A stretch of 64,000 nt of DNA, taken from contig OY727098.1 in NCBI GenBank assembly GCA_963402885.1, positions 21,128,717-21,192,716 on the forward strand, given 5' to 3'. Position 1 is the stretch's first letter. Each line of letters opens with the position of its first letter. The notes below the pieces were generated by a model that saw only the letters and a program-made list of their open reading frames with translations, searched no databases and was not told the DNA's origin. The stretch is from Antedon bifida. Lineage: Eukaryota > Echinodermata > Crinoidea > Comatulida > Antedonidae. Positions 4,689-44,337 of the stretch are shown here, one piece after another. The translations under genes were made by a program, and so were the position numbers.

Positions 4689-5361
4689 CTACATTTGGCA
4701 TTCCAAAACTTCATAATACTCTTCGTCGTGCTTTAGCTCTTCGTAATCGTTTGAAGCATTTGACAGTCCTTTACTAAGTTTATCCCTCAAAGAAGATAAT
4801 GAAGATTTTCGACGTTGATTGTTTTTCGCCACAAAACTTGGTTGATGAGCCAATCCATTGTCGTCTGCGTTCCTGACAACGTCAGGCATTGTGGCATACT
4901 CTGACAACTGTGAATATGTTTGATCTGCTGGTGATAGGGTAAAATATACAGGTGACACCGGGGAGTCGGTGTTAGTTAAATTGTGATTAATACGTGAATT
5001 TCGAGATAAACTGCAGTCTGGTAGGTCTTCCACATCTTCGTATGTTGCGTCAATATTAACACTGTTTCTATATGGCTGTTCTTCTTTAGCTTCTTTTGGT
5101 AAGGATGGTAGACGTGGCAATGACTTCCCACGTTCTATGGGTGTCATTCGTTGTTGAAATTGTATTCCTTGTTGTGTCTTCGGGTTGCTGGTAAGATCTA
5201 TGGCACCTAGTTCAGCAGAATTGTTCAAACCGCCCTCTTTAGGCTTGGTTAGTGTCATATAACCTGATGTTGTCATCAGTCCGGATTTTGATTCTTGAAA
5301 ACGTTTGCGTTTAGTTTCAGCGGCAACTATTTCCACTTGCACTTTCTTCTTGCGACGATTT
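4689..5361 (-). CDS. MAM-A last exon: cytoplasmic tail with two consensus ITAMs
   Basis: This exon encodes residues 272-494. Tyrosine motifs in order: SGYMTL (Y305, ITIM-type [SIVL]xYxxL), YEDV (Y378), YFTLSPADQTYSQL (Y410/Y420, 4905-4946) and YEELKHDEEYYEVL (Y477/Y487, 4704-4745). The last two fit YxxL-x6-YxxL exactly, the ITAM consensus for Syk-family tandem SH2 domains. KSLPRLP fits a class I SH3 ligand (+xxPxxP), and RRKSS fits a basophilic kinase site. The exon starts with one base that completes an Arg codon from the transmembrane exon. Phosphorylation and SH2 binding are predictions from pattern only, and a Tyr-rich tail can produce such patterns by chance. Confidence 0.88.
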
Positions 5362-8300
5362 CTGAGAAATAAAAATACAGAGTTCATGATTATACAGATG
5401 TTTACAAGATTTATATCATTGTTTTTGTTAACTATAATTAAATTCTTCAAAGTTACTATATTATTTTGGAAACAAACGAACGTTTGTCTGATTATTTAAA
5501 CTGCATTACAGTTTACACTGGTTTCTCTCTTTCTAAAATAACAGTATCGATAACAGTTCAAAACTCAATCCAAATCGTCTCTTGATTTCAAAATGTAATT
5601 TGTATAGAATGTTCAGGAAATGTAACTGTTTAGTTTACGTTATACAATACGCGACTTAAAAACTATACCAACCTTCTTAGCAAGCAACAGTGAATTATAA
5701 TGCTCATAATGATAATGAAAACCAAACCAATGATGATTCCAATTAAAATCACAATCAAGCTATCATTGTCTGAAGAATACAATACAAATTATACATTCAT
5801 TATTAAAATTTAATTTTCGAATATACTTCCTGATTGTCAGGTACTGTATTTTTTAAAGACATAATCATGTTCTTTTTATTCGTAATCATATGTATCATCA
5901 AGAAATGAAAATGAAATGAAAAATTGTTTTCATTGAAGCTGAAAGTTGAAGGTGAAATGTATATCACGGAACCCATAGTGAGAATAATTTGAATACAATT
6001 TGAGTTTATTGGTTCACGAATGAGGTCAAATTATACTGTAGGCCTATATTACATACTGTATAGTTTTCAGCAATACATCTTAACTTAACTGTCAGAAATG
6101 TTTTAGGCCCTATGCTTAGTCAATGTGTAATAATACATAATAATATTCTATAGAAATTCCTGGTGATTTGAAACCTACTATTTGTGTAACATTCTGTAAA
6201 GAAATGATGGAATGATTGGAATATTACTATTAAACTCTGTAAAATAATTGTTGATATAATTTTCACTTAAAGTTTGATACAATTTAGGCACGCGTGTGTT
6301 TTTTTTCCCAAACCATTGTAACATGTCTGATGTCGGAAAGGCGGTAGATTACAAGTAGGTTGTTCACATTGCGTTTCCTTTGTTTACTCTGCTGGGACGA
6401 CAACAATTATTACGACAATAGTGGGTTTTATATTGCATACAATAAGGCAATAGACCTTGCGATTGTGGGTTTATGAAATGATCCACTTTCTTTCAGACAA
6501 TTAATTTATTCACCATCTGGTATATCCCATGGCATCAGTCAAGTAGTTTTCAGTTTATAATACTTTAGTAAGAAAGAGATAATACACTTAATACTAAGTT
6601 AATTAGGTGATTTATTTTCAATATTTGTCTAAGTATCTACTTTTTTGCCAGTTTAATTTTCTTTAAATTGACTAACTGCAATTTGCAAAAAGGGACACGA
6701 TTCGTTAAAAGAGACTATATGTACAAGTGTGTTTGTTAAAAGGAACCGTCTACAATTGTATAGTTAAAAGGGACAATCTACAAACAAGTAGTGTTAGTTA
6801 AAATAAGAATTTTATCGGATTAAATGCATTTTTGTAAACTTTCTTTGGGTCACCAAAATATCAACTTGATCATAAACGCTGAAACCACCTGAAGTAGATC
6901 TAAATAATAACTTAATGACTAAGGCCTCAGCACATTCGACTTGTTTCTGGGAGTAACAATTTTAGTGATACAGCCTACAGTATTTATTGAGCAAAAAAAA
7001 GTAGCATTTAGGTTTAATTATTCTTTTAATATGATATACTGCTTGATTCGATATTAGGAAATGATATGCGTTTTGTTGGTAGGCGGTCAAGGGTATATTG
7101 TCACAACAATAAGTGAGATTTACCAGTTTCACGTCATCAACTAATTCACTCACTTCAAAGTTCGTAATATTACTACTTCTATTGATAACATAGTTATAGT
7201 AAATACCGCATTCAACAAGAGCGATATTGATGTTAAATGTTACAATGATAATTTACATAAAGGTTTTACTTTATTGTGTATGTATGTGTTTTCAAATTAC
7301 GTTTTTAGGGATTTATTGCTGTTTGACTGGCAGCAGTAGGCCTATTGTATTTTTACTCTCCCAGATTTCCTCATTCTTTCCACTCACTAAGATTTAGAGT
7401 TCACCTATGCCTGTAAATCTAAAAAGTAAAATGAATTTTATCTCATATGGATTTCGATCAGAGTGTCTGACCAAATGTATGTGTTCTTGGGATAGTGTAG
7501 GCCTATTCTATGTTTCGACCTACCAGTAACATAATCAACATCGTCAATCTTAACCAGTCCAGGACTTTTACAAAACCGGGTACCCTGGTATGTGCTTAGA
7601 GGTAATAGGGGCTACCTAGATCTTAGAATTATCCAAAAACTAAACTATACCTTTGGTTGTTGAATCTGGGAAGTTTGTAGTTACATCTGAGCTATTTTGT
7701 GACGTCAGTGATGACGTGCCAAGCACAGAAATGTGTTCTTTGGTTAAAGTTGGATCGGCAGTTATCGGTGATTGTGTTGTTGGTCCTTCAGTCACTAATT
7801 AAAAAAATTACAGACTTTAATTCATTAACAGTAAGTAAAGTAACAAAATTGACATTATTAGGAAAAATAAACAGAATTGAAAAATATAATTGAGAAAATT
7901 AGGCCTATTTACTATTTTTTTACGTGGATTGAAAATAAGAAAACTATCTTTTCGGGTTTTCATGCTTATTAATTAAGTATAGTAGTGGTACTGGGCATAA
8001 GCAGGTACCATGTATTAATTAAACCTAATAGGCATACGGATTTGCTTTAAATTTTAACTATTTTATTGATATATTATTATTCATTATTATACGTTGATGA
8101 ATTTAAACTTTGTCATACTGAATATAACATAAAGTCGTACAATGTCAAGCTACCCTAATTATTTACATAATACTTACACACATGACCACTTCGAACCACG
8201 ATATCATCAAGGGCTACACCACAATTACTACCGTTTACGGTTGCTTCAAAATATATCTGTCGAAAAAAATTTTCAGTGTTTGTAGTATATTTAAAAAAAT

Positions 8301-11300
8301 AATTACATAAAACATATGAATACAAAGTATATAAATGTGACCAAAAAGCATTATTAAGTTAGGCCCTAGTTAGTAGAAGTAAAATACTCGTCTCACTAAA
8401 CAAAATACCCAATACAAAAGTATAATTTATTATAAGGCCTATTATCGGTGAAATTATAGAAAACAAAGTCTTTAATCATTTGGAAATGACATAGTGTGTA
8501 ACTCTTCTTCCACAAGAAAAAAAATACATTGTAGTTTTCACAACAAAAAGAATAATCTAACTTAAAATAAGTTTAAACATATAACACACGACATCATTTA
8601 CATTCTAGATAAATCATGAATGATTCCACCGAACTTTCGAGTTAAAATAACGAGTGTGAGGCTTAACTGCCTTAAAATGTCTTGATATGTTTCGAGAAAC
8701 TATTCTCATCATCAGAACAGAAAACAATGCCTAGAGTATTTATATACCAATAGGACATGGTTGTATGAAAATGAGGAAGTAATTAGCATGATAAAACAAC
8801 AAAGAACGTAGGCTGTTCTGATGATTTACATTTTACTTTTAAAATATAACGAACTGTCTATTTTGACAACTAAAATAAATGAATATATGGAAATAAATTA
8901 ATATTACACACATTGTTTTCTCAATAATTAATGTTTGTGTCAAAATGTTCAACGTGGAATATTTATCTAGCGACAGGTCTACAGAATAACAGAAAGGTAA
9001 TCTCGTCTCTGTCTCTCATAGAGTATTCGATGAATGTTGCTGAGGGCGAAATACCCTGACAAAAATAACGTCATAGTGTGCAAATACAATATTGGGTAAT
9101 GTTTAGTCTAAGAGCATTGTGTATCCGGCGATGGATAGTTTTAACGGCTATGTTGTGGTGAACTATATGACATATCACAACAATAATTATATTGGCATTC
9201 ATGTTAATGACTCCGATTTGCGAGTGTTGTTCTTCATTTCCGCGTATTTCTACCAGAATTAATAATTTTAATCATCAATCGTTAGTGACATGACGTTGTT
9301 TACTTTTATCATTAAAAGTCAATGTATAAATATTGTTAGGGTTATTTGAGTTTATTCCGGCCAACGAACGCTCGACTTTATTTCGCCTTCTTAGGCCACC
9401 GGTCCATAGAAGAAAATAACAATATCATTAACAGATATCTTTAATAGAGAGCATATTTATTTTGTATGAACAAATATAAATACATTAAACAAAAACAAAA
9501 TATCTTTAAAAAAGAATGAATCTATAACATGTGGTGTGTTGATTTTCTTTCTGTAGGCCTATTGTGTACAACAATGGGCAGACAAAAAATGGTAGATAGA
9601 TCTTCCACCATACAAATCGCAAGCATTAATATAGTTTAATCAGTATCTAGCGACTAAACAAATTGTATATGCTTAAATATGTTCATGTGATTACTATAAT
9701 TTTATATTTGTGTTTTTTAATTTGACCAAAGAAATATATTATATTCAAGCGTAGTTTATCTTGTACATTACAGGTGGTTACTTTCAGTCTTTCAACAATA
9801 TATGCTTCCATACCTTGATTGAGCTATGCATATATCATAGCAAAATATGTGTTTTTTAGGCCTACCCTTTGCTCAACTATTGGATTTGTGATACTGATTA
9901 AATGAGAGAAAAGATGATATCACGATTGAATAAAATCAAGAACTCTTACATGGATATGATCATCATTTAAAAACTCACTTACCTTAAATGATTCCTGACA
10001 ATTCAAATATATATTTGTTGTGATCCACCTATCAAGCTTATCGCCCGTTCTTTTCCATATTGCCCTTGTTTCATTTCCACAAGTAAATACTTTTAGTTTG
10101 GGATACTCAAGTTGAACAGGTTCGTTTAGATCCCACATGTAATAGGAAAAGGTCAATGTACCCTTTCCCGATGGAAGCTCTAACTCTGGTATATTTGCTA
10201 TTGATGTGTAAACACCGCTTTCCCGGTTCCAAGAATGCAGCACTATAAATAAACCTGTAAAATAGATCTTAATTTAGTACAGTTCACATGGCATGGAAAT
10301 AGCATTTGAATTTCGTTGTTAATATAGGTATGCTTGATTGTTATTTATAACACACTCGAGTGACTATCTGATTGACTAATTTCGTATTACGTGTTGTTCA
10401 GTATCATTTCGTAGTAAATGTAGATAAACACACTTCTGTGTTGGGCTATTGGTTCATGGTTTTCTCTTTTTTCTCCTTTTTTAATAAATAAATAACTTTA
10501 ATGAATTTCTATTTCACGGTAAAAGTTCTATTTTATGGTTTTATGAAAAACGTTAGGTTGGTGACTGCTCAAAAACAGTATAGGTCCTAACTTAATTGTA
10601 AGGTACAGGGAATTCCTAAAAGAAGTTGTACTGATTTTATTTACCTTTGACATCCGAATTATCTCTGATTGGTGGTTGTTTGTTAAATTGTGTAAGTGAC
10701 CAGTGCAACACCGATGCAGTTCGTACGTCGATTTTAATTTCGCATTGTGTGATATTTTGTAGGTTGCATTCGTATAATACTATAAAAAAAAATAACATAG
10801 GCCTAATTATAAAATTAGAAAAAGGAAATACTCGTGTAATCGATATGAGAATAAAAACGAACACAAGAAAATAAATGAGTACTTTAGCATATTAATAAAA
10901 TTCAAATAAACCTTAATTAAACATTATTTTAGATATATAAATTACAGAAAAAAACAAAGTACTTATGTCAAATTTAAAAAAATGCAAAATGAAACATCCG
11001 GTGTCCTAGGGGAAATTATTGAATTCTAAGCTAAAATGTTCATTATAGTAAAATGTTATAGAGATTATGATTTCATATTTGCATGAAATATGGTACGGGG
11101 CGATTTTGTATGAATAATACTATTAGATATCCTCGAAAACAAAACAACAAATGGTCAACATGATGATTCAGTCAGGTAAATTGAAAAATAAAACATCGAG
11201 TGAAAAATAGCACAGCGTCTGACCACAGGTGTGGACCACCAAGGATTTAATAATATTATTACAGTAGGCTACGTGGTTGACGATAATATCACCAAGAAAT

Positions 11301-11774
11301 TTCACGATATCAAGGGAAAGACGTTAGACCTTCTACTAATAAATAATTGCTTGTTGATTTCAAATAACATTTCTTTCAAAGGGTACCTCCCTTCTGCGGG
11401 TTACACATCTCAAGTACAACGTCCGGTTCTGATTTGTATTGCAGGGTTTAGGCCTAATTGAAAAATAATTTAAATATAGGCCTATATTTATATTTGATAG
11501 GCCTAAATAAAACAAGATATGAATTCTAATATTAATTAGTCTCATACCATGTTCAAACGCTGAAACTGGTGTGTTGTATGTATAAATATGTTTCCTGTTT
11601 GAAGCAGATGGTATTAGATAAAAAATATCCGAGTTTAAGACTACAAAGTTGATAAATTAATAAGATAGCCTACTCACCCGATCCATATGTATCTATTATT
11701 GCAGTAGTTTTATCACAATTTACCTGAAGATAAATACTGGAAATTATTAACACAGCAAACACAAACATGTCCAT
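4689..11774 (-). CDS. MAM-A: single-pass MAM-domain receptor with tyrosine-motif (ITAM-like) cytoplasmic tail
   Basis: Seven coding exons: 11678-11774, 10645-10779, 9983-10242, 8178-8256, 7651-7794, 5673-5769, 4689-5361. The sum is 1485 nt, 494 aa plus TAG, and all junctions keep frame. Order: signal peptide (residues 1-20, ends LQVNC); one MAM domain (about 36-190: two Cys in CNLQNITQC, LTFSYYMWDL, the core IYFEATVNG, then VALDDIVV); Ser/Thr-rich stalk (191-238); transmembrane helix (about 242-264) followed by the basic stop RRNRRKKK; tail 271-494 with nine tyrosines. MAM domains mediate extracellular protein contacts, for example in receptor phosphatases and neuropilin. The tail suggests SH2-based signalling at the plasma membrane. 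The neighbour MAM-B is a paralogue in the same orientation. Introns are short (0.3-1.9 kb). The last MAM cysteine is lost if the donor after GHV is used as modelled. Function is inferred from domains only. Confidence 0.93.
6687..6805. repeat. Degenerate tandem repeat, about 45-bp unit
   Basis: Four imperfect copies built around GTTAAAAGGGACAATCTACAA, lying in the intron of MAM-A between exons 5 and 6. Noncoding. Confidence 0.6.
8640..8720 (-). ncRNA. Degenerate hammerhead-ribozyme-like motif
   Basis: Minus strand: CTGATGA (8709-8715), a single T, a 5-bp helix GAGAA/TTCTC with loop TAGT (8694-8707), then GAAA (8690-8693). This is the conserved CUGAUGA-helix II-GAAA core of hammerhead ribozymes, with one extra base before helix II. 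Helices I and III are weak as far as I can fold by eye. It is probably the relic of a retroelement of the kind that carries hammerheads (Penelope-like or retrozyme). Confidence 0.35.
9983..10779 (-). CDS. MAM-A exons 2-3 encoding most of the MAM domain
   Basis: Exon 2 (10645-10779) and exon 3 (9983-10242) are separated by a 402-base intron. Exon 2 carries the start of the domain (CNLQNITQC, then the tryptophan of VLHWSLTQF). Exon 3 carries the central strands: GVYTSI, LTFSYYMWDL, LKVFTCGNE, IWKRTGD-LDRWITTNIYLNC. Exon 4 (8178-8256) closes the fold. In the paralogue MAM-B the part matching exon 3 is split by a phase-0 intron between LK and VYAC, which is absent here between LK and VFTC. Confidence 0.9.
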
Positions 11775-12386: not shown

Positions 12387-12480
12387 TCGTGGCAAACGCG
12401 ACTCTACAGCTCACTATTTCGGTCGGTTGGTCGGTCGGTCGGTAAACACTAACTCAAATTTGAACACGCGACTGCAGCCA
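12387..12480 (+). repeat. Dispersed repeat with GTCGGT core, copy 1
   Basis: GCGACTCTACAGCTCACTAT is followed by (GGTC/GGTTGGTC)n and ends near another CGCGACT. The same arrangement on the opposite strand occurs at 58465-58590, so this is a dispersed family rather than a lone microsatellite. Confidence 0.6.
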
Positions 12481-13605: not shown

Positions 13606-13629
13606 CATTGGCATCTGTACAGTCATGTA

Positions 13630-16735: not shown

Positions 16736-17531
16736 TCAAACAAGAGAGTAGTCTAAAGTATTTTCAATATTAGTATGTGAAGGTGCTGAAAGATTATTAA
16801 GTTGTGTGTCAATTTGGTAGCCAGAAAAGCCCAAATCGTTAGGGCCTAAGCAACGATAGTCGTCTGAATCGGATTCATCCGCTTGGTAATCAGATAATCG
16901 AATACTATCTATTGTCTCTTCTTCCCGCGCACACAAATCTAAGTAACTATTAACATCCATTCTACTAGTAGCTTTTTCAGAGATAAAGTCCTCCTCGTCG
17001 TCTGCATGATAACTTTCTAGTTCATCTTGACCTGGTTGAACTGGCTCTGTATTTTCTTCCTTTTCGAGAACATAATATTCATGATATGGTTGAATATTAA
17101 ATTCACCATCTTTCTGATATGTGTCTCTTTGATTCGCTTGTGATATAACATCAGGAATATGATAATAACCAACTTGGTTTACTATATCCATCCCGTAAGT
17201 TGGATTAGCGCCAATTCTCCTTGTGGAATGTCTTCTAAACTGATCAGGATCCATATACACGGGCGGATCATAACTCCGCGCATGCGCCGGTACAGTGTTA
17301 CTATTAAAGTGAAGCGGAACTCTTTTAAAACTAGAAGTAGTGGAAATGTTTTGTAAAGACATATAAGCTGATGTGTCAACTTCAACTACACCAGTGCAAG
17401 CGACTTGTAGTTTGGTGTAGACGGACGGCACCGGACCTTGTAGCTCTACATAACCTGCAGGGTCATATAAATACGGGTTCATGACCCCGTCTACAGACGA
17501 TCCCGAAGATACCTCAAGTTCCTTACGTCTT
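16736..17531 (-). CDS. MAM-B last exon: 264-residue tail with ITAM and 20 tyrosines
   Basis: Reading starts with one base that completes an Arg codon from the transmembrane exon, the same phase as in MAM-A. The membrane-proximal YVELQGPVPSVYTKL (Y334/Y345, 17408-17452) fits YxxL-x7-YxxL, the ITAM consensus. Further motifs: SAYMSL (Y363, ITIM-like), YDPP and YMDP (Y394, Y399; YxxP, the pattern liked by Crk-type SH2 domains), VGYYHI (Y429), YYVL (Y459), YLDL (Y503) and LDYSLV at the C-terminus. Acidic residues flank many of them, as in tyrosine-kinase substrates. The ATG at 17482 is internal to the exon; the true exon begins at 17531. Confidence 0.9.
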
Positions 17532-26500: not shown

Positions 26501-29500
26501 AGTATATTTTCGCAACTTCGCAGTATTTAACAATAATAATGCCTACTTGAAGGTAGGAATGAAATTGTAAGATATATTTGTAATTTGTGAAGATCCGATT
26601 ACGATATTCAGCAATGTAACTATTAATAGAGACATTAGCAGTTGTTACTATAGTGTAGTATGTACAAAGTGTATGTATAAATAAGAAACGTTCATGTAAT
26701 ACAAATTAAGATTTAAGATTACGTAGGAGACACCGAATTTAATGAAAACAATTTATAGAGACCATTATTATGCATCATGGATGTAAGGATTCAATGTTTT
26801 GAATCTCATCTTACGACAGATAGGTATGTTGACCTACGTCCCAGCTAGCATACCCATAACCCGAAGGGATGATCACGAGAAGAGAACTATTTTCCATCCG
26901 TTTTCTCTTTCATAACCGGCGGCTGTTTATTATGCTTCTATAGCAGTAAAACGATTTATGGTCAATTACATGATTGTGTATGGTGTACACAAACAATTTT
27001 GGAATCTAGATTGTAAATACTTAGAATCTGTTGTGAGATTATTGAATTAAATTGGAATCTTCGCGATATATAAAACAATCTTAAAAACTACTGCATGTGA
27101 TGTTGGATTTGATAATGATATTAATTGAGGTTTCAAATAAGGTATGATAGAAAAAAATAAAACAAATACAAAGCGGGTATACTGTTTAACACACTTGAAT
27201 TTGGATCTTGGTTACTGCTGTCTATCTCTTGCATCACAGACCGACCGACGGAAGGGGAAGTTGATATTGTTGAACCATGTAGCGCCCTCATTTCACCATT
27301 TGTTGTACTTGTAGAGTCATATATTACCTCAGACCCAGCTACTGACGTCGATGGCGACCTCATTGCCATCGTTGTCATGGCTACTGATGTTGATACGTAA
27401 GGCACGCTTTCTGTCAATACAATAGAAAGGAAATGGTATTTGCAATTATGTATATAATGTATAATTTCCTTATCTAAAATGTAACAATAGTGCATATTCA
27501 ATGCTAATATTATTTAATTAACTACTTTCTAAACATTAGAAACATAATTATATGACGTAATTGATAATAATTAGGTTAACAGTTAGTATCTGTCTGTATT
27601 GTGTTTAAATAATTGGAGAGAACATTATATTCCACATCATCCTAAACTGAAATTAGCAAAACCAAATGTGATCATTATTAATGTTTAATGTCATATCACT
27701 TCGCAATTATAAACATCATCGGTATACGATATTTCAGCTTTATAATATCTTAAGAGAAGATATCCCAGTTGAACACCAGTTAAAATTCCAGTTAAAAGTT
27801 GAGACTGGGTTAACTGTGATTTGGTTATTGCAACTGCTTTGCCAGAACGGTAACTGGTTTTCTCAAAATCTCCAATTGATTTCCATCAAAAGTGTGTTTT
27901 TTTTGTTAACAAACTCGTTCGATAATGTACACTGAGCTTTAAATATGTCTTAAAACTTTCGTTACGCACAGCAAAATAGAACTTTACAGAACCCGTGCGC
28001 TATAAGGTATGGTACTTTGGTACACATACACAGTGCATAACATAACTAATTATGTTAATTTACTACACTGGTACTCATACGCGATCCTTTAAGGGGAATA
28101 AGCATGTGTCTATATGCCAACAATATCCTATTGGATCAACGTGCACGCGAATGTCTCCACACTCGTTTTGACAATATGTTATTTGACGCCACTGAGTTGT
28201 TTGTTGGTACTTTCAACCTAATAATAAATAACGCCGATGTTAGGTGTAAATGAGAGTGTGTGTATACTTTAAATCCAATCTTGCGGCAAGCATGTCATGA
28301 ACCAGAATAAATATATCTTGCACATCACGTAGTAATCCTTCATGAGTCGTCTAAATATTCATTATTAGAACTGCTATGCATGCGTCAGCCGTCAACGAAC
28401 ACGCAACCATGCAGTAGAAGAGGCACAGAATAGATAGAACATGAATCAGAGAGAACAAACAAATCAAATAAATGAATATTGCTATATACTATGATAAAAG
28501 AAAAACAACAGAGATCCGCAGACATGAACAAAATGTTTGCATTTCTGAAAAGATGATCACATTTTGCGCGACGCGTTTATGAATGTAATGGTACAAATAA
28601 TGACATGAGGTGAATGATGAAAGGTTATATTTCAAGGAGGCGAAGCCGAATGCAATTATTTGTACCATTACATGAATATAAAACATCCATTATTTGTTTT
28701 ATATAACATCTAAATAGATTTTTGTCATTTGAAACAGATTGAATAAAATGTATGCCTAGACCTACATTTAATTCAAATTGAAACAGTAAATATATTTGTT
28801 TTTATATGTTCTTTTTTATATTATATTTTTGAGGATTTTATAAACACACCTACTGTAGTGTTAATATGTCAACAAACGACCAAACAATCCTAGCCTGATA
28901 CCGATAGGCATAGCTAGGCTAGAAATGCAGCGATTCGAAATTTGGACAGGCAACTGTAACTGATCTAGGCTAATTCTGTTTTTCCAACGATTCCACGTCT
29001 TGTAGAGACGTTCCTATTAATTAATCAAAATCATAAAAACGATCTAAAGCTAATTTAAATGTTTTTTTTGTTTTGTCTAAACATAAACTCTCCAAGAATG
29101 TACTTCCGTCACGATACACTCGCGTAGGAATCATCGCAGCGGAAATAAAAAATAGGCGGCGCTGTTGGATTTATAAAGTAATGGTCTAAAAAAAACATTT
29201 TTAAAACGCACTATTCAATAGTGCGTACTATTGCACGTCATGTGACCCACAATGCGTACAATAAAATGAATTTTTTTAGGTGTTATATAATAAGTAATAT
29301 TAGGTTGTTCTTTGTAGAATCATGTCATATACATCCATAATCATCGTTCGCGATCGTTTGCAATAAACTACACTACTAATTATCATTACCTTAACGCTGT
29401 GCGTAAAGTACGAAACCGTTATGTTATTTTCAATAATACCAGAAGGGGAATGAACTTGGCCTTAAACTTTCGATTGAACCCAGCTTGTTTGTAAAATGAT

Positions 29501-32500
29501 TCCCCTTAACGATGACAATGCAAACATAACAGATGAGCCGTGTCTCTACACCGGGGGCGAACATCAATGGCAATGCAATAGAAAACATCTTAAACTAATG
29601 AGATTTAATATAGCTACTGTGTTACATTACAGTAAACGTTATCCTTTAATTAATAATAGCCTTACGAATATTAACCTACCATCGATTGAAAGGTCAAGCA
29701 AAATAATATCATCGATTGCAATGTCACTGTCACGTGTCCCACGAACGCCTTCGAATAAAACCTAAATGCAAAAATACAATAACAAGTCATTTTACAGTTT
29801 GTTATTATTAAACATAATCAATGCCATAACATACTGCCCATGCGCAATGAACAGAATTAACCTAACGTGACGTTGCGTTGTACATTATCGTACAGTTATT
29901 AGAGAACGTGAGTTTCAGTTCGACCCTTTCAAAGAAACCCTAAATGAGTTTGAATCCATCAAGGAAAGTGTACTATAACAACCACTTGACATAAATGAAT
30001 CGCTAATCAGCATTTATCACCATACACTAATACATAATATCTAGAAAACTAAGATAAGATGCAAGTATAATATGTATTATTTTAATTTAATTAACACCAG
30101 AATTGAATAAGCCATTTTGTTACAGTAAAAGATGTTCAAAAAATTATGATTCTGCAACAAATAAAACATTATATTCTATACATCTTTAAACACATGAATA
30201 ACGAAATATCTGCTGGTATATCCTTAATATGGCGTATATTCATAACGCATGCATAAAATCCTTGATAAATGCAGAAATAATGCTTTTCGTATCGTATATC
30301 AACGAACATTAACATAAAAAAGCTGACCTCAGTCAGAGTAGTGAAAATATACGAACGTAGCATAAGCTATCTTGAGTGGTATAATTGATTCATATCAAAG
30401 GATAATTTTATCGTGACGTCTTGGGAAATAGTAACAAATTGTCACACCTTGCTTAATCTCAATTTTCTTCTGTACCTCACAAATCATTTTGCGTAGGCCA
30501 AATCATTTCTATGAAAATCCAACATTCTCGAATTTAAAGAGTTCTGTTTAAGAATCAGAAGGAAACTGCATGATTTTGCTTTATATTACGAAATGTCTTA
30601 ATGCTTTTTTTCAATCATCAATCCAAATGTGCATATTGCTGTATTACACGTTCAGACCCAACGTATTGTACATAATGCATTGTACGGTACCGGTGTATTA
30701 TTGCGTTTGCTATCTTCACACTTTGTAAATCCCTAATTTCGGTCTTGAAGATGTCCCCATTTAATTGGGAATCTACTCTAGGTGTACCACAAATTCATGT
30801 CATATATTAGTGACTTCATATAAGCTTATTATCTAGGCCTATAATAGTTTATTTAATTTAAAATTGGTCAAAATATTGTAGATACTCGCTATTATATACA
30901 TTCGGGACCCAACAAATATTCGAGTGTTCCTTAAATAGAAGTTGCCCGTATTGTTTAATCAGCTTTTATGTGTATATATTGGAAATCTAAATTGAATTGC
31001 TATTCTTATTATAGTTAGATTAATTGATCCTTTCTTTTAAAAAATAAAGCATGACTGCTCTTATAAAGGTTGTTCTTGTAAACAATGTACTTCTGAACTG
31101 AATGAGCATTGTCGGTTGCATATTTATGTTAATAAACGCGAGGGTAATTACGGATCCGTAATTGGAAATTTGCAAAACGATAATGAGGTTTATGCCAATT
31201 TCTTATTGTTCCGTAAGTCGTTTCAGTTATACGTACATTTAGTAACACTGCGTGATGTTACTGAATTCAAGATTCACATTATTTCACAGTGCGATACTAA
31301 TGAGTAGGGTGAATAGCAGCGGGTCTTTAGCCAAGCCTGAAGTGATGGTTGGGTGCGAACACGCGAATTCGCTGTTGGATGTCCTAATCATTCGCAACTT
31401 GAAGTCAATTAAATGACTATTATGACAACACCATTCCATCTTAAACATATTTTTGTTTAAGTCTAATGCATTTTCAGTACAGTACAGTTTGAATTACCTA
31501 CACAAACCAGTAAATTTATTGTCACATACTGTGTAACTATAATAAACATAAAAACAAATCGAATCCCATAATAATAATATGGGATTCGATGGTAAGTCAA
31601 CTTACTGGAGGTGTATAAGGAAAGAGTTCCAATGTGGTAAGTTCAATGAGTTTAAAGAATTAGAATGGAATAATAGCCTAGTTATATAAAAGTAGTTGCA
31701 TGCATTAATTGTATTTTTCTCACAATTCAATAACCCGTTGATGATTAAATGAGCTGTGAGCGCGCGCCTCAAACTTGTGCCGAATTTTTAATTTCTTCAC
31801 CTAAACATTATACAATCGCCAAGAGTAACAGGACACTTGGCTAATTGAGAATCTTCTTCTAGGCCTACTAATACCATTGACATAAATATATGCCAGAGAA
31901 AGTTTAGCTACCTCTGTGTTGACAAATTGACATGCTGCAGTAATTGGTTATCATTAGTGTTATATTGTATAATTCATAAAATCGGCGCCATGGCTTCGCA
32001 CAATGTTTTACACGAGAAGAAAAGAAACACTTTCAAAATAATTACATTTTCAGCCACGGTAATAGTTTAATGTTTTACTGAGATGGGTACATGATAAATA
32101 ATGGGATAACACTAGATCGGCTGAGTATGGTAACTAGAGATACATACTTGAAACTGACCGGAACATCCGAATACTATCTCCGCCATAAGCCATCGGCTAC
32201 CTTGTGAGTTTGACTTTATCCATGTTGGTTCGCCAAGAGTATAACCATTTTGTTGACAAGCATACACCTTAACAATATTTTTAAAAAGAAAGAAAAAATA
32301 GAAGCTATGTCGACGTATATTAGGCCTATACTATTTCACTTAATTTTTACTCATTTTAAACACAGACAATTTTTTAACAGTAGCCTTTTGCCAGATTCTT
32401 AAACTGTACCTTTCTCAATACTTGTTGGTGTACTGTAGGCCTACAAGTTGAGTAAAATATACAAACACTTGTCCTGGAAATAATAGTTACGGTAATTCTA

Positions 32501-35500
32501 AAGTTCTTTGGTTGTTGGTTTTTTTTTTTTGAATTTTTAGCATGATCTATGACAAATTTATTTCTATATTTATAAAATATATTTCTCTCTTTGAACGTAT
32601 AACGTTTATTTTGTATAATCAGAGGATATGTTTATTATGTAGGGCGATGTATTTATTCATTTCTTTATTGTGTTAGTGTCAAAGCACTGGTACCACGTGT
32701 GTCAATGAATCAAATGAAACGGGTAAAAAAGCATTGACAATGTTACGCGGATGTCACTATCATGAATGTATATTTTTAAAAATGACCGTATTCATGCGTT
32801 TTGCTTAAAGTTTCACAAAATAACTCAGGACATTGACATCAGCAGAGTGGCAATACATTACTTTTGTAAAGTACTATGTTCGTCTTGACGGGAAAATGAT
32901 TTACATTATTTTGTAATATTTCATATTACGAAAATAATTTGAATATACAGGTCAATAATATTTCTATGCATAATTTATCTTGTGTTTTTTTTTTGTATAT
33001 AATGTATTGACAGCATTCATTCCATGAAGATAAGTTTATCTCCCTTTCGAACAAGGCCGACCTGTGACGAACGATGCCAGCATGATCTATGATTATCCCG
33101 TCATGCTTAGCGCATTATGATTAACGCTGATTTATTATGCATATTTTAATAGCAGTAATAAACAGCAAATAAATAGTGAGATATTGAGTTCACTGCTTTT
33201 GATATTTAGCAATTGAAGATAACGAAGATTTATTATTTATTATTTCATAAATAATGCAATCTTATGAGAAAGACATTAAGTAGAGAGAAACGTGTTAAAA
33301 CGATGCAAATTTACGTTGTACATAGAAAGACGACGAGAATGACATGCAGTTTGTACTGTAGGCTACACAAACCTTTGTGATACGGCACTTTTAACAGTGA
33401 ATTTGTCAGAGGACAAGGCATATGTTTGGAACAAGAATAAACTATAATATTATCGAATATATCTACACGCTAATGTAAAATTTAACAGTTTTTTAGTACA
33501 TTGTATCGTAAAATATATCATTTGTAGCCTACATAATCGTGCCAATTCTTTGATACGGTCTCCGATTGCATTCAATGGAATTACAGGCCATTGAAGCCTA
33601 ATCTAACCCTACCTAGAATCACTTCCCCACACGTAGGCCTACTCTGAAACATATGTGACTACATGTATTACAGAATTTTGCCTATGATACTGATTACTAG
33701 ACACGCCACTAATGTTATGTCGAGATGCGGTGCAGATAATCGGATGAGGCAGGATAATAGAGTTGTGTGGTTGTCACCTTACCAAATGGAAAACTTGATA
33801 TGTTTGTATTATTCGACTACTAATAATTATCATCATCAAATATCAGTTACTATTCCATTTTTTTTCTGAAGTCAGTTATTAGCGTTGACGAACGCATTAG
33901 GACATAAAAACAATAGTTCTGATGAATTATTTATTTTGAAATGCAAATGAAGTAATTAAAAGTGCAAATCTGTTTAATGGAATCTTATTATAAAGATTAG
34001 CATTTTAATTCACTTACTTTAAGGTCACCGAGCGAATCTGGTGGATCACGGTCTTCCATATGATAATAAAACCTTAGCAAACCTCTACCAGCCGATAACT
34101 TTAGTTTGTCACCTATTTGTAGTATAGCTCTGTCACCTCTTCTGTCTGCATTTGACTGTGTATACATGTAATGCCCTAAAACAAAATGCCTACAGAGTTA
34201 TTCTCACTTTAAGAATAGAAATGGATTTATTTTATTTAGTATATAAAATCTAGTACTGTACGATTTTGTTTCGAATTGGACACGTCCATCTCTATCTGAA
34301 ACTGTGGCACACGAAGAATAAACATAATTGTTAACACGTTAAAAACGGCAATAATTATTAAAATAAAATGCAAAAATAACGAATTATATTTAAAAAACGA
34401 AGTAGTAAAATTCAGTTATATTATGTTTTATTTATGGAAAAAAATAAATAGTAATTAACAGTATCATTTTTGTTTCTTTTACTAAAGGGTTTATATTTGG
34501 AGATAGACTAAGGAGTGACAGGTTGTTCATGCCTAAAACACGGTTCGTGGTGAACAGTTCTGAAGTGGCACTTCGGTTTTCGAGTGGGGTTGGTGAAATC
34601 TGTCCAATATCTGTCCATTTTTTGTTTTTTCCTGTCCATCATAGGGGCTGATGGCGCTGTTTGTTCATTCTAGGGGGTTTTCCATGTATAAAACTGTCTT
34701 ATTTATCGGCGTTCCATACACGATTTACTGTTTACCGTTCTGCTGAAATTTGATGGATCGAAGTTGGAGATCTATTATACAGCCAAATTATTCTTATTGC
34801 ACATTGGAACTACGGAGTACTGAATTGATCTCAAGGTTGCTTTCAGACACAATACAAACATGTATGTAACACTATCGAGACATAAGAATCGGATCGTCAA
34901 TGTGTGTTACTAAATTACTAACGGATTTGGACCCAGCATGTGTACGAACGATATCATGTTGTTAACTATACTGATAGTCGATTGCTACAGCACTTAATGC
35001 TTATATAGTTTTTTTCTATTTTCACTGGTGTAATGAGGATTTGTAAGAAGAGAGAATTAAATGAGGCTGTTAATTGGAAGAATACATCATTTTCATCAAT
35101 AAAACACCAGTTGGAAAAGTAAAACGTGCTTGCCTATCAAATCAAAAGACATTGACCAATGAATATACTTGAACGCACACGTTTGATATTGCTATAAATA
35201 TTGTATACTGAAAATTAATTAATTATTTTAAGACAAGGTAACGAGAAAAACCCAGCCCAACCGAGATCCGATCGAACCCGAAACTTTCTGCTTGCTGTGT
35301 AACAAAACATCTTTCCAAGCCTACCACCATAGAAATGATATTCAAAACTCAAAAAAAGTTTTTTTCTGATTGTAAGTGAAAAATGTTATACGAAAATTAA
35401 ATTTCATAATTTTAGGTAACATGATATTTCAATGATCTTCAAAATTTAGTTTTTCTGATTGTAGATGAAAAATGTTATACGAAAATTACATTTCATTATT

Positions 35501-38500: not shown

Positions 38501-41500
38501 GTATCTATACATGTAATTTTGGCTAGGCCTAATAATTTTTATTTTAACAAAAAAAAGCGCGTTACAACCGATTTGTGTTAGTAAAATCGTGAATGAAATG
38601 TGGCTACATTTGAATAAGATGATTATACTTTGAATAAATAATAAATATTTCCTTAAAATCACATCAAGCTGCCAGTGGAACGAGCATGAGTCACGTGTCC
38701 ACGCCCCGTAATTTTCTTTTTTATTCAAAACACGATTTTCAGTCCTCATTGGATTGTTATATTGCCCCACCTCACAAACAAACCATTACACGGAAACGAG
38801 TGCTCATTAAAAGACGTAGTTTCAGATCGCTTTGTCCATATATTACTTTTGAGAAATATATATTAGATGTGTTATTCATATAGCCTTCATTGTAAATAAG
38901 CTGATCAAACAAAATTTCTGTTTATATACTATAAAAAATCGGCTTTGTTATCATGCATTGTCTTTTTTTGAAAAATCAATTAATAATAATGATAATAATA
39001 TTATTAATTAATAATCAAACAAAACACACACAACATTTAAAAACCAAAACTATAATATTATAGGTCTACACTTTAATGTGGATTTGTAATACTGGATGTT
39101 CAATGAATACTGTATTCTTCTAAGAATATTTAGTAAAATGTTACAGTATACTGTTATAATTAAAATCTAAATTAAAAATAAAATAATTATTTTTATATAA
39201 AATGAAGAGTTTTACTCAACAAAGTTCATTTTAAACTTAACCGCGTACTAAAAATGTAGAACTGTAGAAAATGTGACTAAAATAGCATATATACAAAAAC
39301 AACTATGAAAGCCATTTGGGTAAAATCGAAAATATTCCCTTTGCTTTTCTTGAGAATCCATCTGAGACATTGCAGTCTGATGAAATCCATTGTATTTCGA
39401 ATCGTTGTGTCTGAGTGCATTGTACGTTATGGATGAGAGAAGTCCGTGGTTGTTTATTCGTATTCATTTACTCTCTACCTATCATAAATCACTTTTCCAT
39501 CTAGACTTTCACTAATAAAAATAAACCACGATAACCTATAATAACCCTGAATCCTTATACCTAGTAGAACAACATATTTTGAATTTAAAAGAATAAATTG
39601 CATATAGTTTTTTGAGAAACCAGCAGTAAAAGTGGCGCCATAGTTTTAAAGGATTTTACATTAAAATGAAAAATATCGAACAACCATTAAAATGTCTTAA
39701 TGTAATGTATACGACAAACTAAAAGCATCAAAACAAATTTGCATTTTGTAGGCTAGGGAAAACTACGTTCCTTTTTGTATAGTACTAGTAACGCATAATT
39801 ATTAAATATTTTATACAGTACAAAAAGAAATTACAATCCTAAAGTGAAATACTAAATAATTTTACTTGATTTATAGTTCGCACTATCAGTAGGCCTACAA
39901 TGACAAACAACATCTCATGGTGAATGTTTAATGAAAATCAGTAAGGTTTGGGTGTGACGTAATCTTGCCAACAGACAGACAAATAAACTAACAAACTGAC
40001 AGATAAACCAGGGTGATCGCATAACCTCAGTGACGAAGGTAATAAAGTTACTGTACATATATACTATACATCAAAAAACGTACAGTACTGCTGCTATACA
40101 GAGTTACATAGGTAGGGGCCTATATGTGACGCCTGTGCCATACGCATTAACCTATGACGTGTGATACATGTGACACGAGGTATTACATAATTTACATGAT
40201 ACTACACAGATAATACCATGTGTGAAGATAATTACAAAGAATGGGGTGTGATAATAGTACTGTACTGTATTTTTGGATTTTAAAATTTCGAGAGTGATAA
40301 TTAACTGTTACCTAGTATAAAATAATGTACCAGTAAAAATGAAATTTATATGTACAGTGCAAATGTGAATAACATTGATAAGGACAATGACTTTACGAAT
40401 GATCATCATTGTCGAATTTAATTTACACAAATGCATTTTTAATCACTTGATATATATTTGAATATTATGATTCATTTTATAGTATACTTTTTATCACGCA
40501 CCTGATATATTCCCATAGGTGTGGTCGCTGCTGGGACCCGAGTATGCTCCGCCAGTCAACCCTCGCCATTTCGTCCAATCAAAATTGTCATTCGGATAAC
40601 TCCATTGTCTTATTTGTTCACAATTTTCTTCAGATTCGAAATCACACAAAAATACCTCTGAAAATTAAACATAAAAGCCAAAATTAATTTGAATTATAAT
40701 GCATTCATTTGATAATTCCAATTCGGAAGTACTCGTCATTTGCAGTACTGGTACTGGTACTGGTTCAAATAACCGTCTCACAGAGACATCTGGTAGCCAT
40801 TGACTTAAAGTTGGCATTTGGATGTGTTACTTTTAAATGTAGGCCTACAGTATGAGAGTGACTACTACCAAATTACACAGTCTCAAAACAACTTATAAAC
40901 AGTTCATATATACAGTTAAAACATTGCTGGGAATTATAAATTTCTGTTGAAGCAGGCTCTAATGAAGTACTATATAATAATCTAACAACATCTGGTAGAA
41001 CTCATCAATGATTATGCACAAGATAATATATTATAGAAGACTATTGTACATTTTATACTAGGCAGTATTATGAGTGACCGTGTTTAGAGCAAGTAGGCAT
41101 GTTTTATGATTGTTTATTCATAATAATTTATATATTCATATTATAATATTGTTGACTTGAAATTCTTTATATCAGCATTTATCAGCAACTCATTTTTTAA
41201 TAACGAAAAAGCATACTACGGTACTACCTGTACATAATCCACAATGGAATTGGTCAAAAAATCAATTGTTTGTTAAAACAATTTAAACATGGTAAATTGT
41301 CTTGTCCGATGAAAAAAGTACAATAAATGCTAAGTTAGAGCGTATACAGTATGTAAATGGCATCGTGAATTATAATAGTATTCACTTTTAACATTCTATT
41401 ACGTATAAATTATATCCAAAACACGGCCAAGGCCGCACGCGTAAAGCATATCTTTATGATATGTCTTTTCAGTCGAGCTGCTATCATTACTGCTTAAGGG

Positions 41501-44337
41501 AGAGTATAATAAAATAATGTGCACCGCTGTTGTATACAGAAATTAAAACTTACATTTTATGGTCAGAAATACGGGATACAGTACTGTAATAAATCGAAAA
41601 TCATGTGATTGGAATTTCTTTTTGTGTGAATGAATGTAATTGTTCAAATTTGAGCTGAAACAATAGAGGTTCAAACTCCAATTTCGTCGTGTTTTTGTTT
41701 AATTGTGAATACATTTTAACGTAAGCAAGATAATAGTTTAAACAATGGAGGCATGGCTACAAAAGAGATTAGATAGTGAATATATCTTATGGTTATACTG
41801 TAGGCCTACACATTGAAATGTAGCAACTAGCACTATACCTATATGTAAAAATCATTCCAATAATTATAGCTTTTAGGATTTTATTTGTGTTACACGATTT
41901 TGTTATAATAAGAACTTTCTTATCCGTGGGGAGGGGGTGGGGATTTAAATTACACAGTAAAATCACTATTCTTTTGTACACAAATGTTGTAAAAGAGAGG
42001 CATTTCAAAACAATTAATGATGACTAAATTTGGTAGTTAATAACTTCACTTCAGATTTGATATTCGTACTATATAGCAAACATGATCTACCGTATTAACA
42101 CGCATAGACCTACCCTCTTTTTGCCACCAGATTTGTCGTACATGGTATAGCAACATTTTGCCAAATTACGTATTCCACAATTTTTTTAAAGGAAAATTTA
42201 CCTTTTTTTGTCTTGATTCTTGTGTACACAGTATACATAGTCGATTTATGTACATTTAACCAGATATCATATTTAAAATTCATGCCTGCACACGAGATTT
42301 AACATCAAATTGAGGTACTTTAGGCACTGTATTGTCAGTACCTAATAGTCCTACATTTTGAGAATCTTTTATCCAACGGTGTGCATCTCGAACGAACACA
42401 TTTAACTTCGTGTTATAGCTATGATTCTATTTTGAACGTAATGATCACATCAGAAAATTAGATGTACAGTATACACACACACGCATGAGTTACTTACACC
42501 ATAGAAGATAGAAAATTATGATAATTTGACGTGAGTAGTATAAAGAATGCATAGCTAGCAGCCATACTGATTCGAAAGCGTGAAACCATGCAGGTATAAT
42601 GCCACTGAATACATTTCAATAATAATACATAAACAAAAAGAACAATAGAGAAGGGGATTTACACTGGGGATAAGGGTTGCAAATACAATAAGCTGTATTC
42701 TTATGATATATTTATACCATGGACGACGATGACGAGTATGGTATCTGACAGGCATTCAGTCCTAATGGATGGACATACTCATGAATGTTTCCAATGTTTA
42801 AGCTTAAGGTTTATATTGGATCAAACGGCCTAAAGGCATTTTGTCCCAAGACAATGGGATTTGCGAAAGGGATCAAGGACTTCAAGTAAGGACTTCGACG
42901 TTATATTTGTCCAGCTGTTAAAGTTAATAACATTCTATCTTTATGGTGTTAATAACATTCTGAATAAAATCTTGAATCCATTATTATAATGATTCTAATG
43001 GCTGTACCATGTGTCAATCAGATCGTATTCCTGTTATTGAATATAATCAGAGAGGAATTACATTAATTCCATCAAAAATATATACAGTACATTACCATTA
43101 TCGCAGAATGAATATCGTATAATATACTAAAACAAAATGTTTGACTATAAAAAAGAATAATTAAAATACAAAATAAAATATAATCAATTCACTTCAATAA
43201 TGACAGTACACGCTGCGCTTTTGGAATAACTTATAAAACAAAATATATGTGTATATGTATATCAATACATACAATGTATAAAAATAAAACAGACAAATTG
43301 TGTTTGTTTCTGCCTCAAAATAAAATATTTATTGTACGAGTACTTTCGACCATAGGTCATCATCAGGTACTGATAGAATATTGGTAAAAGACGAATAGCC
43401 TACATATAGAAAAAGGGTACACTAGAAAACAAAGGAGTCGGTACCTGATGATGACCTATGGTCGAAAGTACTCGTACAATAAATATTTTATTTTGAGGCA
43501 GAAACAAGAAATTTGTCTGTTTTATTTCTGTACATGATCCTGCCTATGCAGCACCTATTTCTTTCCTGATACAAACAACAATGTATATGTACAAATCAAT
43601 ATATAATAACAAGAATGGGAAATGTTCAAAAATCTAACTGCTCCAGTGGTTTCGAGTGTTTGAAATTCAGCTTTATGGTAGAATGGAATAGTAATAATGC
43701 TATTGTTATACTGATATAATAGAATTTATTAAAAATAGAAGATTGTTTTGACAATAAAAACAGGAGGGTATGCAACAACAATAGATAAATCGAGGTATAT
43801 CTCAACTGGTTAATATTGAAGAATAGTAAAATGAAATTATCAATGTTTAATTCTTTCTAGACCAAGACTCAATAAGCTTAACAGTAACAACATTCATTTG
43901 AATACTTGCCACATTTGTCATATGGAGGAGCATTATATATGTGAGTGCATATTGCATTTAAAAATGTATTATTTTTGCCTCCCCGTGTAATAACTATATA
44001 TAGTTATACAGTATTATATTTATTAACAGATTCGATAGTTCGAACTTAGAAATATCACGACATCATTACATTATATTAAATAAAACGTGCATAATTGTGT
44101 ACATATTTTAAGTGTCTTGCCATGTTACGTGATAATTGGATTGGATACTTCCGATACACTTAATTTTATGTACAGAAGAACCAAGGAGGAACTTCCTCTT
44201 TAATAAGATGTATTGTGCGATTTTACTGTAGTGTAGCAATACTTACGTTGATAACATAACACAGTCTTAACCATCAGCGACGAACAAAGCAGAATAGATG
44301 TCAAGCTAGCATATAACCTCTTGAACAAAACAATCAT
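16736..44337 (-). CDS. MAM-B: single-pass MAM-domain receptor with very tyrosine-rich (ITAM-like) cytoplasmic tail
   Basis: Eight coding exons: 44247-44337, 40502-40657, 34018-34175, 32148-32267, 29680-29761, 27195-27410, 26089-26185, 16736-17531. The sum is 1716 nt, 571 aa plus TGA, and all junctions keep frame with GT-AG borders. Order: signal peptide (1 to about 28, hydrophobic LTSILLCSSL); MAM domain (about 34-202) with textbook landmarks CDFESEENC, NFDWTK, GPSSDHTYG, LLRFYYHM, GSRWLMAEIVF, FQ-VLFEGVRG, DIAIDDI; Ser/Thr-rich stalk (203-274); transmembrane helix (about 277-303) and basic anchor IRKRRRK; tail 307-571 with 20 tyrosines. It is the paralogue of MAM-A: same domain order, same phases, same 97-nt transmembrane exon. 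The role is probably recognition or adhesion coupled to tyrosine-kinase signalling, inferred from domains. The gene spans 27.6 kb, and its introns (1.0-8.6 kb) are full of repeats. Confidence 0.94.
21614..21712. repeat. 36-bp tandem repeat (about 2.7 copies)
   Basis: The unit starts TGTGGAAGCACCGTATTCAT, with copies at about 21614, 21651 and 21687. Noncoding, inside MAM-B intron 7. Confidence 0.8.
24133..25689. mobile_element. Non-autonomous element with inverted ends and 6-bp target duplication
   Basis: The left end AGGTGATCATTT (24133-24144) is mirrored by AAATGATCACCT at the right end (25678-25689). The flanks are AATTAT on both sides (24127-24132 and 25690-25695), consistent with a target-site duplication. 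The right end also forms its own hairpin with AGGTGATCATTT at 25660-25671. Inside are two diverged direct modules (about 24350-24610 and 24705-24960: gatgacatcatccaaat-like start, a GC-rich patch, then ggccatatgg/ggccaaatga) and an (ATA)n run near 25608. No transposase frame is seen. Confidence 0.6.
26089..27410 (-). CDS. MAM-B exons 6-7: Ser/Thr stalk and transmembrane helix
   Basis: Exon 27195-27410 encodes a 72-residue low-complexity stalk (STSVAMTTM, STSTTNG, STISTSPS), likely O-glycosylated. Exon 26089-26185 (97 nt) encodes LILLVGLTAPVFSIVLLLVI and then GFICFIRKR, a hydrophobic helix with a basic cytoplasmic end. There are no charged residues within the membrane, so pairing with a DAP12-type partner by a salt bridge is not expected. 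The donor at 27195 (GTGTGT) is less typical than the others but gives the right phase. Confidence 0.9.
28584..28672. repeat. Small foldback: 18-bp perfect inverted repeat
   Basis: TGTAATGGTACAAATAAT (28584-28601) and its exact reverse complement (28655-28672) flank a 53-base loop. It may be a miniature transposon remnant in MAM-B intron 5. Confidence 0.65.
29146..29300 (+). repeat. Dispersed repeat family (AGGCGGCGCTGTT), copy 1
   Basis: Shared blocks with 54262-54480: AATAGGCGGCGCTGTT, a central inverted motif ending ATAGTGCGTACTA, TGACCCACAAT, and TTAGGTGTTATATAA in the same order. A short third match (TCATGTGACCCACAAT) lies near 14687. Confidence 0.65.
29680..40657 (-). CDS. MAM-B exons 2-5 encoding the MAM domain
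   Basis: Exons 40502-40657, 34018-34175, 32148-32267 and 29680-29761. Landmarks match the MAM consensus closely, in order: C-x-F-E, FDW, GP-DHT, the FYYHM strand, TWIKSNSQGSRWLMAEI and VLFEGVRGTRDSDIAIDDI. The canonical final MAM cysteine is missing; instead there are cysteines in VYAC and in FGCS, at positions where MAM-A also has cysteines. The final exon is only 82 nt. Confidence 0.93.
31048..31306 (+). CDS. Unassigned ORF with clustered cysteines, antisense within a MAM-B intron
   Basis: An open frame from about 31042 to TAG at 31305 reads HDCSYKGCSCKQCTSELNEH, then CRLHIYVNKREGN, and later FLLFRKSFQLYVHLVTLRD. Cysteine pattern C-x4-C-x-C-x2-C-x8-C. The first ATG in this frame would be missing or late, since the Cys cluster lies upstream of the shorter ATG-less call at 31116. 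An AG acceptor at 31048-31049 is possible. Composition looks protein-like and GC is higher than in the surroundings. No family recognised; it could be an exon of a nested gene or a mobile or viral relic. Confidence 0.28.
31558..31590. repeat. Perfect hairpin, 13-bp arms
   Basis: ATCGAATCCCATA, a short AT loop, then TATGGGATTCGAT. Intronic (MAM-B intron 4). No known role. Confidence 0.6.
35244..35335 (-). repeat. tRNA-derived SINE-like sequence
   Basis: Minus strand: GGTGGTAGGCTTGGAAAGA (box A region, 35310-35328) and CGGGTTCGATC (box B, 35270-35280), followed by GGATCTCGGTTGGGCTGGG and a T-run, as in SINE bodies. The tRNA fold is imperfect. Confidence 0.5.
35358..35516. repeat. 89-bp tandem duplication
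   Basis: Two copies share TTTTTCTGATTGTA, GAAAAATGTTATACGAAAAT and ATTTTAGGTAAC. The first starts near 35360 and the second near 35449. Confidence 0.75.
37612..37832 (+). repeat. Dispersed repeat R1, copy C (partial)
   Basis: It matches 47007-47251: CCGTATATCCACCAT, GGGAGTCACCAGACA, TTACATTAGGTTAA, TTAAGGGAAATTCATGTTTT and AAAATTCATGCCTGTACC occur in the same order. Confidence 0.75.
41855..42302 (+). repeat. Dispersed repeat R1, copy A
   Basis: It aligns by eye with 46700-47251: CATTCCAATAATTAT, GGGATTTTATTTGTGTTACAC-type block, TTACACAGTAAAATC, TTTGTACACA, AGAGAGGCATTT, and a common end AAAATTCATGCCTG. It is more diverged than copies B and C. No coding frame. Confidence 0.65.
43334..43370 (-). 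ncRNA. Hammerhead ribozyme-like motif (minus-strand copy)
   Basis: The exact reverse complement of the motif at 43441-43477, with the same helices and core. Confidence 0.5.
43441..43477 (+). ncRNA. Hammerhead ribozyme-like motif (plus-strand copy), type I layout
   Basis: GTAC (helix I, 43441-43444), CTGATGA (43445-43451), one extra T, helix II GACC-TAT-GGTC (43453-43463), GAAA (43464-43467), a minimal helix III (A67-T72, G68-C71, loop TA), then C at 43473 as the expected cleavage base and GTAC (43474-43477) closing helix I. All conserved core bases are present. A one-base insertion before helix II and the very short helix III mean activity must be tested. Confidence 0.5.

Follow-up and report, generated by a model that had tools for sequence, protein, structure and literature searches.

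Immunoreceptor tyrosine-based activation motifs (ITAMs), with the consensus YxxL/I-x6-8-YxxL/I, are carried by vertebrate immune receptors such as CD3, FcR-gamma and DAP12. Here we describe two tandem neighbouring genes, MAM-A and MAM-B, on the minus strand of a 64,000-nucleotide stretch of the genome of the crinoid Antedon bifida (the window, on a 28.2-Mb contig of the 315.6-Mb genome), whose products share the same layout: a signal peptide, one MAM domain, a Ser/Thr stalk, one transmembrane helix and a tyrosine-rich cytoplasmic tail. Two consensus ITAMs are found in the cytoplasmic tail of MAM-A and one in that of MAM-B. The best explanation overall, which we hold at slightly less than an even chance, is that MAM-A is a candidate Syk receptor acting after Src-family phosphorylation and that MAM-B has a mixed docking tail. 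As in the vertebrate ITAM receptors, both tails have paired YxxL/I motifs with a spacing of 6–8, and Src-family and Syk exons are present in the genome; unlike those receptors, the two proteins have a MAM rather than an Ig or lectin ectodomain, carry longer tails with many other motifs, and are known here from sequence alone.

RPTP mu and RPTP kappa likewise place a MAM domain on a single-pass receptor, but they also have Ig, FNIII and phosphatase domains, none of which was matched in MAM-A or MAM-B (Pfam, E up to 1). Receptor tyrosine kinases of the ALK type contain a MAM domain as well; since no kinase domain was matched in either protein at the same threshold, the pair is not of this type. 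Neuropilin-1 differs in its CUB and FV/VIII domains, its short tail and the location of the ITAM on another protein, and Drosophila Draper in its EGF/EMI ectodomain and in its use of Shark, not a vertebrate-type Syk. As for the likeness, PlexinA1, the partner of Neuropilin-1, is reported also to join the ITAM adaptor DAP12 via TREM2 (PMC5328970), and Draper with Shark is reported as an invertebrate receptor in ITAM-dependent Src/Syk-family signalling (PMC5978004). CEACAM3 is reported to carry an ITAM-like sequence (PMC3308951). Among invertebrates, the candidate allorecognition receptors of Hydractinia have ITAM-type motifs and immunoreceptor tyrosine-based inhibitory motifs (ITIMs) and the fester co-receptors of Botryllus have YxxI/L motifs, the signalling partners being reported from these animals too; however, the Botryllus ectodomains are Ig/Sushi, and both systems are described as polymorphic allorecognition systems (PMC12065747). 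Shrimp scavenger receptor C (MjSRC) is, like our pair, an invertebrate MAM-bearing immune receptor, but it is described with CCP domains and a beta-arrestin2 and clathrin route (PMC9028835), whereas no CCP/Sushi match was obtained in MAM-A or MAM-B (Pfam, E up to 1). Invertebrate ITAM-type receptors have thus already been described (PMC12065747), and the new element is the MAM domain and the ITAM on one chain. No receptor of that kind was found in the openly accessible literature searched, a scope that leaves out most subscription journals, in line with the sequence-only reading that had pointed to the pair.

Paired tyrosine motifs and a candidate Syk pathway

The ITAMs quoted in the sequence-only reading are present as stated. 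In MAM-A they are YFTL-x6-YSQL (ITAM 1, 4905..4946; all window coordinates given for features of the two genes refer to the minus strand) and YEEL-x6-YEVL (ITAM 2, 4704..4745), in the outer half and at the far end of the tail, respectively, and in MAM-B the single motif is YVEL-x7-YTKL (17408..17452), near the membrane. Hydropathy gave one signal-like and one transmembrane segment per protein, and all three ITAMs lie C-terminal to the only strong transmembrane helix. Chance expectation was estimated from 20,000 composition-keeping shuffles per tail. Two or more ITAMs appeared in 5 of the 20,000 shuffled MAM-A tails (P = 0.00025) and at least one in 1.2% (P = 0.012); at least one appeared in 4.2% of the shuffled MAM-B tails (P = 0.042). 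Single YxxL/I motifs were also in excess, with 5 in the MAM-A tail against 1.04 expected (P 0.00135) and 7 in the MAM-B tail against 2.09 expected (P 0.0018).

We then compared the two proteins with their relatives in other crinoids. In Antedon mediterranea, unnamed NCBI proteins match MAM-A with 96% identity over 100% (P0005; 493 aa against 498 aa, the 5-residue difference lying in the stalk) and MAM-B with 98% identity over 100% (P0001; the same length, 10 substitutions). None of the 9 tail tyrosines of MAM-A or the 20 of MAM-B is changed, which is weak evidence at 96–98% identity, and substitutions in the tails did not differ significantly from those in the rest of the proteins (MAM-A, 5/224 and 8/269, P 0.78; MAM-B, 2/265 and 8/306, P 0.12). 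Outside Antedon (Antedonidae) a single orthologue was found, when the best 8000 candidates by shared words were scored for MAM-A: the MAM-A protein of Anneissia japonica (Comatulidae; P0006, 345 aa). It is without most of the MAM domain and spans the last MAM exon, stalk, transmembrane helix and tail, so that it is perhaps a truncated gene model. With P0005 as the reference, 140 of 214 aligned tail residues are identical in P0006, including 35/46 in the tyrosine windows (−2 to +3) and 105/168 elsewhere, and 7 of the 9 tail tyrosines are retained. ITAM 1 reads YFTLSPTDQGYSHL in Anneissia, all four anchors being intact and the spacing identical; YMTL and the proline-rich PRLPSLP site are also retained, and YATM has become YSTM. 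A single ITAM, the number present in the Anneissia tail, was attained in 1.8% of its shuffles, and its 4 YxxL/I motifs compare with 1.24 expected (P 0.027). The candidate role of MAM-A is supported by ITAM 1 being intact across two crinoid families and by the excess of ITAMs over shuffles in its tail.

Several observations weigh against the best explanation. ITAM 2 is degenerate in Anneissia (YEEL-x5-YEEV) and fails the consensus, so that one of the two YxxL pairs of MAM-A is conserved in the single orthologue compared. At 65% tail identity, moreover, four anchors would survive by luck with a probability of ~0.18, and the conservation of ITAM 1 is modest evidence, supportive but not conclusive. 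Tyrosine-free blocks of the MAM-A tail (KRKRFQESKSG, GKSLPRLPSLP, RRKSSLSSLR and KLSKGLSNASN, within 4692-5361) are also unchanged between A. mediterranea and Anneissia, and no Pfam family scored above its cut-off there; because these blocks are equally conserved, the tail has other jobs too. The single ITAM of MAM-B is marginal, weakly above chance and without an outgroup: a search with the full protein found no relative outside Antedon, its 4 matches being one from Antedon and three MAM-bearing proteins that share about one-third of the query, and the tail alone drew no match from 145 candidates at E up to 10. The AlphaFold2 model of P0005 is poor (mean predicted local distance difference test score 39.3, predicted template modelling score 0.22). 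Finally, MjSRC was the one invertebrate MAM receptor with a described function that we met, and it reportedly signals via beta-arrestin2 and clathrin (PMC9028835).

Next, the genome was scanned for SH2 domains, which gave 55 matches, and 20 stretches around selected clustered matches were examined. Syk exons lie on the minus strand of contig C11, at ~431-446 kb. The N-SH2 exon had SYK as its best match in PDB (8.7e-38), followed by ZAP-70; read by eye, the C-SH2 is in three pieces, and the kinase exons carry HRDLAARN and DFGMSKAL. When a single kinase exon was searched against PDB, SYK (3.6e-20) and ZAP-70 ranked behind a chain of 678 residues that carries the label EGFR and was matched in two stretches (1.9e-29). 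A Src-family SH2 (best match Fyn, 3.5e-37) and an SHP2 N-SH2 (4.9e-71) were also identified. With exons predicted for Syk, a Src-family kinase and SHP2 in this genome, an ITAM pathway is possible. Long open frames in an intron of the Syk gene (C11, ~436.8-441.4 kb) resemble a retroelement by eye. In other invertebrates, Syk and HTK16 transcripts are reported from sea star eggs (PMC11593052), and a review ascribes a single Syk-like gene to invertebrates (PMC10253181). A Syk of the vertebrate type is retained in several invertebrate lineages. A survey of Syk, CARD-CC and Bcl10 reports Syk/ZAP70-type kinases only in those invertebrates that have CARD-CC/Bcl10, and its authors inferred conserved ITAM-bearing receptors upstream of invertebrate Syk (PMC5978004), a role for which MAM-A would be a concrete candidate.

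These data are consistent with a model in which the two genes, tandem duplicates that have diverged, encode crinoid receptors with a single membrane pass. The MAM domain would serve in binding or in clustering the receptor at the cell surface, a Src-family kinase would then phosphorylate tail tyrosines upon clustering, and the conserved YFTL-x6-YSxL pair of MAM-A could hold Syk by its tandem SH2 domains and give an activating signal, with YATM and PRLPSLP as additional docking points. The tail of MAM-B most likely offers phosphotyrosine docking of a broader kind (YxxL, YxxP and NPxY), perhaps also working via Syk. MAM-A is, in this model, a plausible, putative invertebrate Syk receptor. The earlier proposal of Src/Syk signalling keeps the support of the Syk, Src-family and SHP2 exons and of the retained ITAM 1, and loses that of ITAM 2 and of the MAM-B ITAM. 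The more far-reaching suggestion is less likely than not and can be put forward only tentatively: MAM-A would be a Syk-coupled echinoderm receptor whose kind of ectodomain was not met on one chain with ITAM signalling in the literature searched, and hence one of the missing receptors upstream of invertebrate Syk/CARD-CC/Bcl10, and MAM-B would be its tandem partner with a docking code that has become different. If true, ITAM signalling would be tied to a MAM ectodomain and not to an Ig or lectin one.

Docking, sorting and chance as alternatives

The tyrosines could instead serve general docking. YxxP is a Crk/Nck-type SH2 motif and NPxY a PTB/endocytic motif, and the logic of such a tail may be likened to that of CDCP1 or p130Cas: a substrate of Src that acts as a platform for SH2, PTB and SH3 proteins (Crk/Nck, PI3K, SHP2), with Syk not the main effector. 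The MAM-B tail, with 20 tyrosines in 265 residues, three YxxP motifs (the pair YDPP and YMDP at 17246..17272, and YHIP) and one NPxY (NPTY, 17195..17206), fits this description, as do YATM and the proline-rich PRLPSLP of MAM-A, both of which are retained in Anneissia, and the SHP2 and Src-family exons of the genome. The sequence-only reading was right that ITIM-like and YxxP motifs occur besides the ITAMs: with the pattern [SIVL]xYxx[ILV], one ITIM-like motif was found in MAM-A and four in MAM-B, and YxxP is confined to MAM-B. However, two exact ITAMs in MAM-A are improbable by composition, and one of them is retained with its spacing in Anneissia. We regard a scaffold of this kind as unlikely for the pair, yet far from negligible. 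The C-terminus of MAM-B, SLV (16739-16747), fits a class I PDZ ligand.

YxxPhi is also a clathrin-adaptor sorting signal, and the YxxL and NPxY motifs may be read as such, which would make the two proteins phagocytic or endocytic MAM receptors like MjSRC with phosphotyrosine signalling as a secondary feature. Consensus matching is unable to separate an ITAM from YxxPhi, and the 5 and 7 YxxL/I motifs of MAM-A and MAM-B, with NPTY in the latter, fit sorting as well. In addition, an SR-C-like protein is the second-best solved match of MAM-B (8.4e-13), and MjSRC is reported to bind via its MAM domain and to be internalised by an arrestin-clathrin route (PMC9028835). On the other hand, a sorting function by itself would not predict the paired spacing of 6-7 or the YxxP and YxxM sites, and neither protein has a CCP domain above the Pfam cut-off, whereas MjSRC does. 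We consider uptake as the principal function rather unlikely, though a serious alternative.

That the motifs are chance products of tyrosine-rich disordered tails on plain adhesion molecules is improbable: the marginal P value of the MAM-B ITAM, the loss of ITAM 2 in Anneissia and the failure of the two tails to align would agree with it, but the YxxL/I excess in both tails, the conservation of ITAM 1 and, weakly, the unchanged tail tyrosines of A. mediterranea do not.

Gene models and predicted domains

The exons of both genes were reconstructed from open reading frames and splice sites. MAM-A consists of 7 exons running from the start at 11774 to the stop at 4689 and encodes 498 aa, not the 494 first proposed; MAM-B has 8 exons from 44337 to 16736 and encodes 571 aa, as proposed. 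The rebuilt exons, the Pfam MAM matches and hydropathy agree with the claim of two adjacent same-strand genes that share the whole layout from signal peptide to tail. Intron phases are 1,1,0,1,1,2 in MAM-A and 1,1,0,0,1,1,2 in MAM-B; the claim that all phases match thus stands throughout, except for an additional phase-0 intron within the MAM domain of MAM-B. The transmembrane exon is indeed 97 nt in both, and a single exon encodes each cytoplasmic tail.

In MAM-A, exon 1 (11678..11774) holds the ATG, with the same start in P0005, and the signal peptide (hydropathy 1.69), and ends at a GTGAGT donor. The divergent MAM domain starts in exon 2 (10645..10779; placed by its splice sites, phase 1/1), which is identical to P0005, continues through exon 3 (9983..10254; phase 1/0) and ends in exon 4 (8178..8256; phase 0/1) with FEATVNGSNCGVALDDI, conserved in P0006; the Pfam MAM match covers protein residues 55-191. 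The Ser/Thr-rich stalk of exon 5 (7651..7794) is common to P0005, where it is 5 residues shorter, and is followed by the transmembrane helix of exon 6 (5673..5769; hydropathy 3.39) and the tail of exon 7 (4689..5361; 224 aa, 9 tyrosines).

In MAM-B, exon 1 (44247..44337) encodes the start codon, shared with P0001, and the signal peptide. The MAM domain (Pfam, protein residues 35-196) extends over exons 2 (40502..40657; phase 1/1), 3 (34018..34175; phase 1/0), 4 (32148..32267; phase 0/0, bounded by the additional intron) and 5 (29680..29761; phase 0/1), and ends with VLFEGVRGTRDSDIAIDDI. Exon 6 (27195..27410) encodes the Ser/Thr-rich stalk. An alternative donor 12 nt downstream would give a protein of 575 aa; we preferred the GTGTGT donor because the length, 571 aa, then exactly equals that of P0001, with 10 substitutions. 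The transmembrane helix lies in exon 7 (26089..26185; hydropathy 2.93) and the tail in exon 8 (16736..17531; 265 aa, 20 tyrosines), 2 of whose 265 residues differ in A. mediterranea. The join between these two exons, across an 8.5-kb intron, rests on agreement with the NCBI annotation and on phase. As the A. mediterranea proteins carry the same exon joins, the tails are annotated there as part of the MAM genes, which supports the original assignment of the tails to these genes.

With a Pfam cut-off of 26.4 bits, the MAM domain was matched at 45.0 bits (1.3e-11) in MAM-A and at 88.5 bits (5.3e-25) in MAM-B, and nothing besides MAM scored above its curated cut-off in either protein. Weak matches over the stalk and transmembrane helix, among them TMEM154 (22.5 of 30.3 bits, 1.1e-4; the best of these in MAM-A) and DAG1 (16.7 of 23.3 bits), were below their cut-offs and were set aside. 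Among PDB chains containing MAM, MAM-B matched MDGA1 (6.4e-17), the SR-C-like protein (8.4e-13) and enteropeptidase (3.8e-11), and further RPTP kappa (1.7e-4) and RPTP mu (2.6e-4). The MAM domain of MAM-A is divergent, its top PDB match at E <=1 being one to the transmembrane region (0.046), followed by enteropeptidase (0.15).

Elsewhere in the window, Rfam and tRNA scans were empty (the latter on a bacterial setting). The strand of the two genes also carries, downstream of MAM-A, an arrestin-domain gene, whose Arrestin_C frame (546-905, minus) scored above its Pfam cut-off (3.6e-14) and whose Arrestin_N match (7.3e-5) fell below it; given the beta-arrestin2 route of MjSRC this neighbour may be relevant, or it may be coincidence.

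A tandem pair among many MAM exons

MAM-A and MAM-B can be aligned over the MAM domain, the stalk, the transmembrane helix and the part of the tail next to the membrane (E 4e-11, 22% over 212 residues). Past this juxtamembrane stretch their tails gave no significant alignment, so that nothing points to a common origin of the ITAMs. When the genome was searched, each tail matched only itself, with 1 candidate each after a loose first pass that diverged copies could escape. A receptor family of several members sharing ITAM tails was thus sought and not found, and a new signalling receptor family, as first proposed, is too strong a reading of what is a tandem pair; we take the pair to have arisen by tandem duplication, its signalling tails having diverged. 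For the ectodomain, a genome search made with MAM-B, not MAM-A, yielded 67 matches (129 of 137 candidates scored), 7 of them its own exons and the other 60 partial and at most 56% identical, so that no close copy came to light. A Pfam MAM scan of the genome gave at least 153 matches (150 of 436 candidates scored), the listed ones excluding the exons of this window. Clusters of MAM exons were seen at C12:2.69-2.79 Mb, C15:7.74-7.92 Mb, C7:4.3-4.8 Mb and C14:18.6-18.7 Mb.
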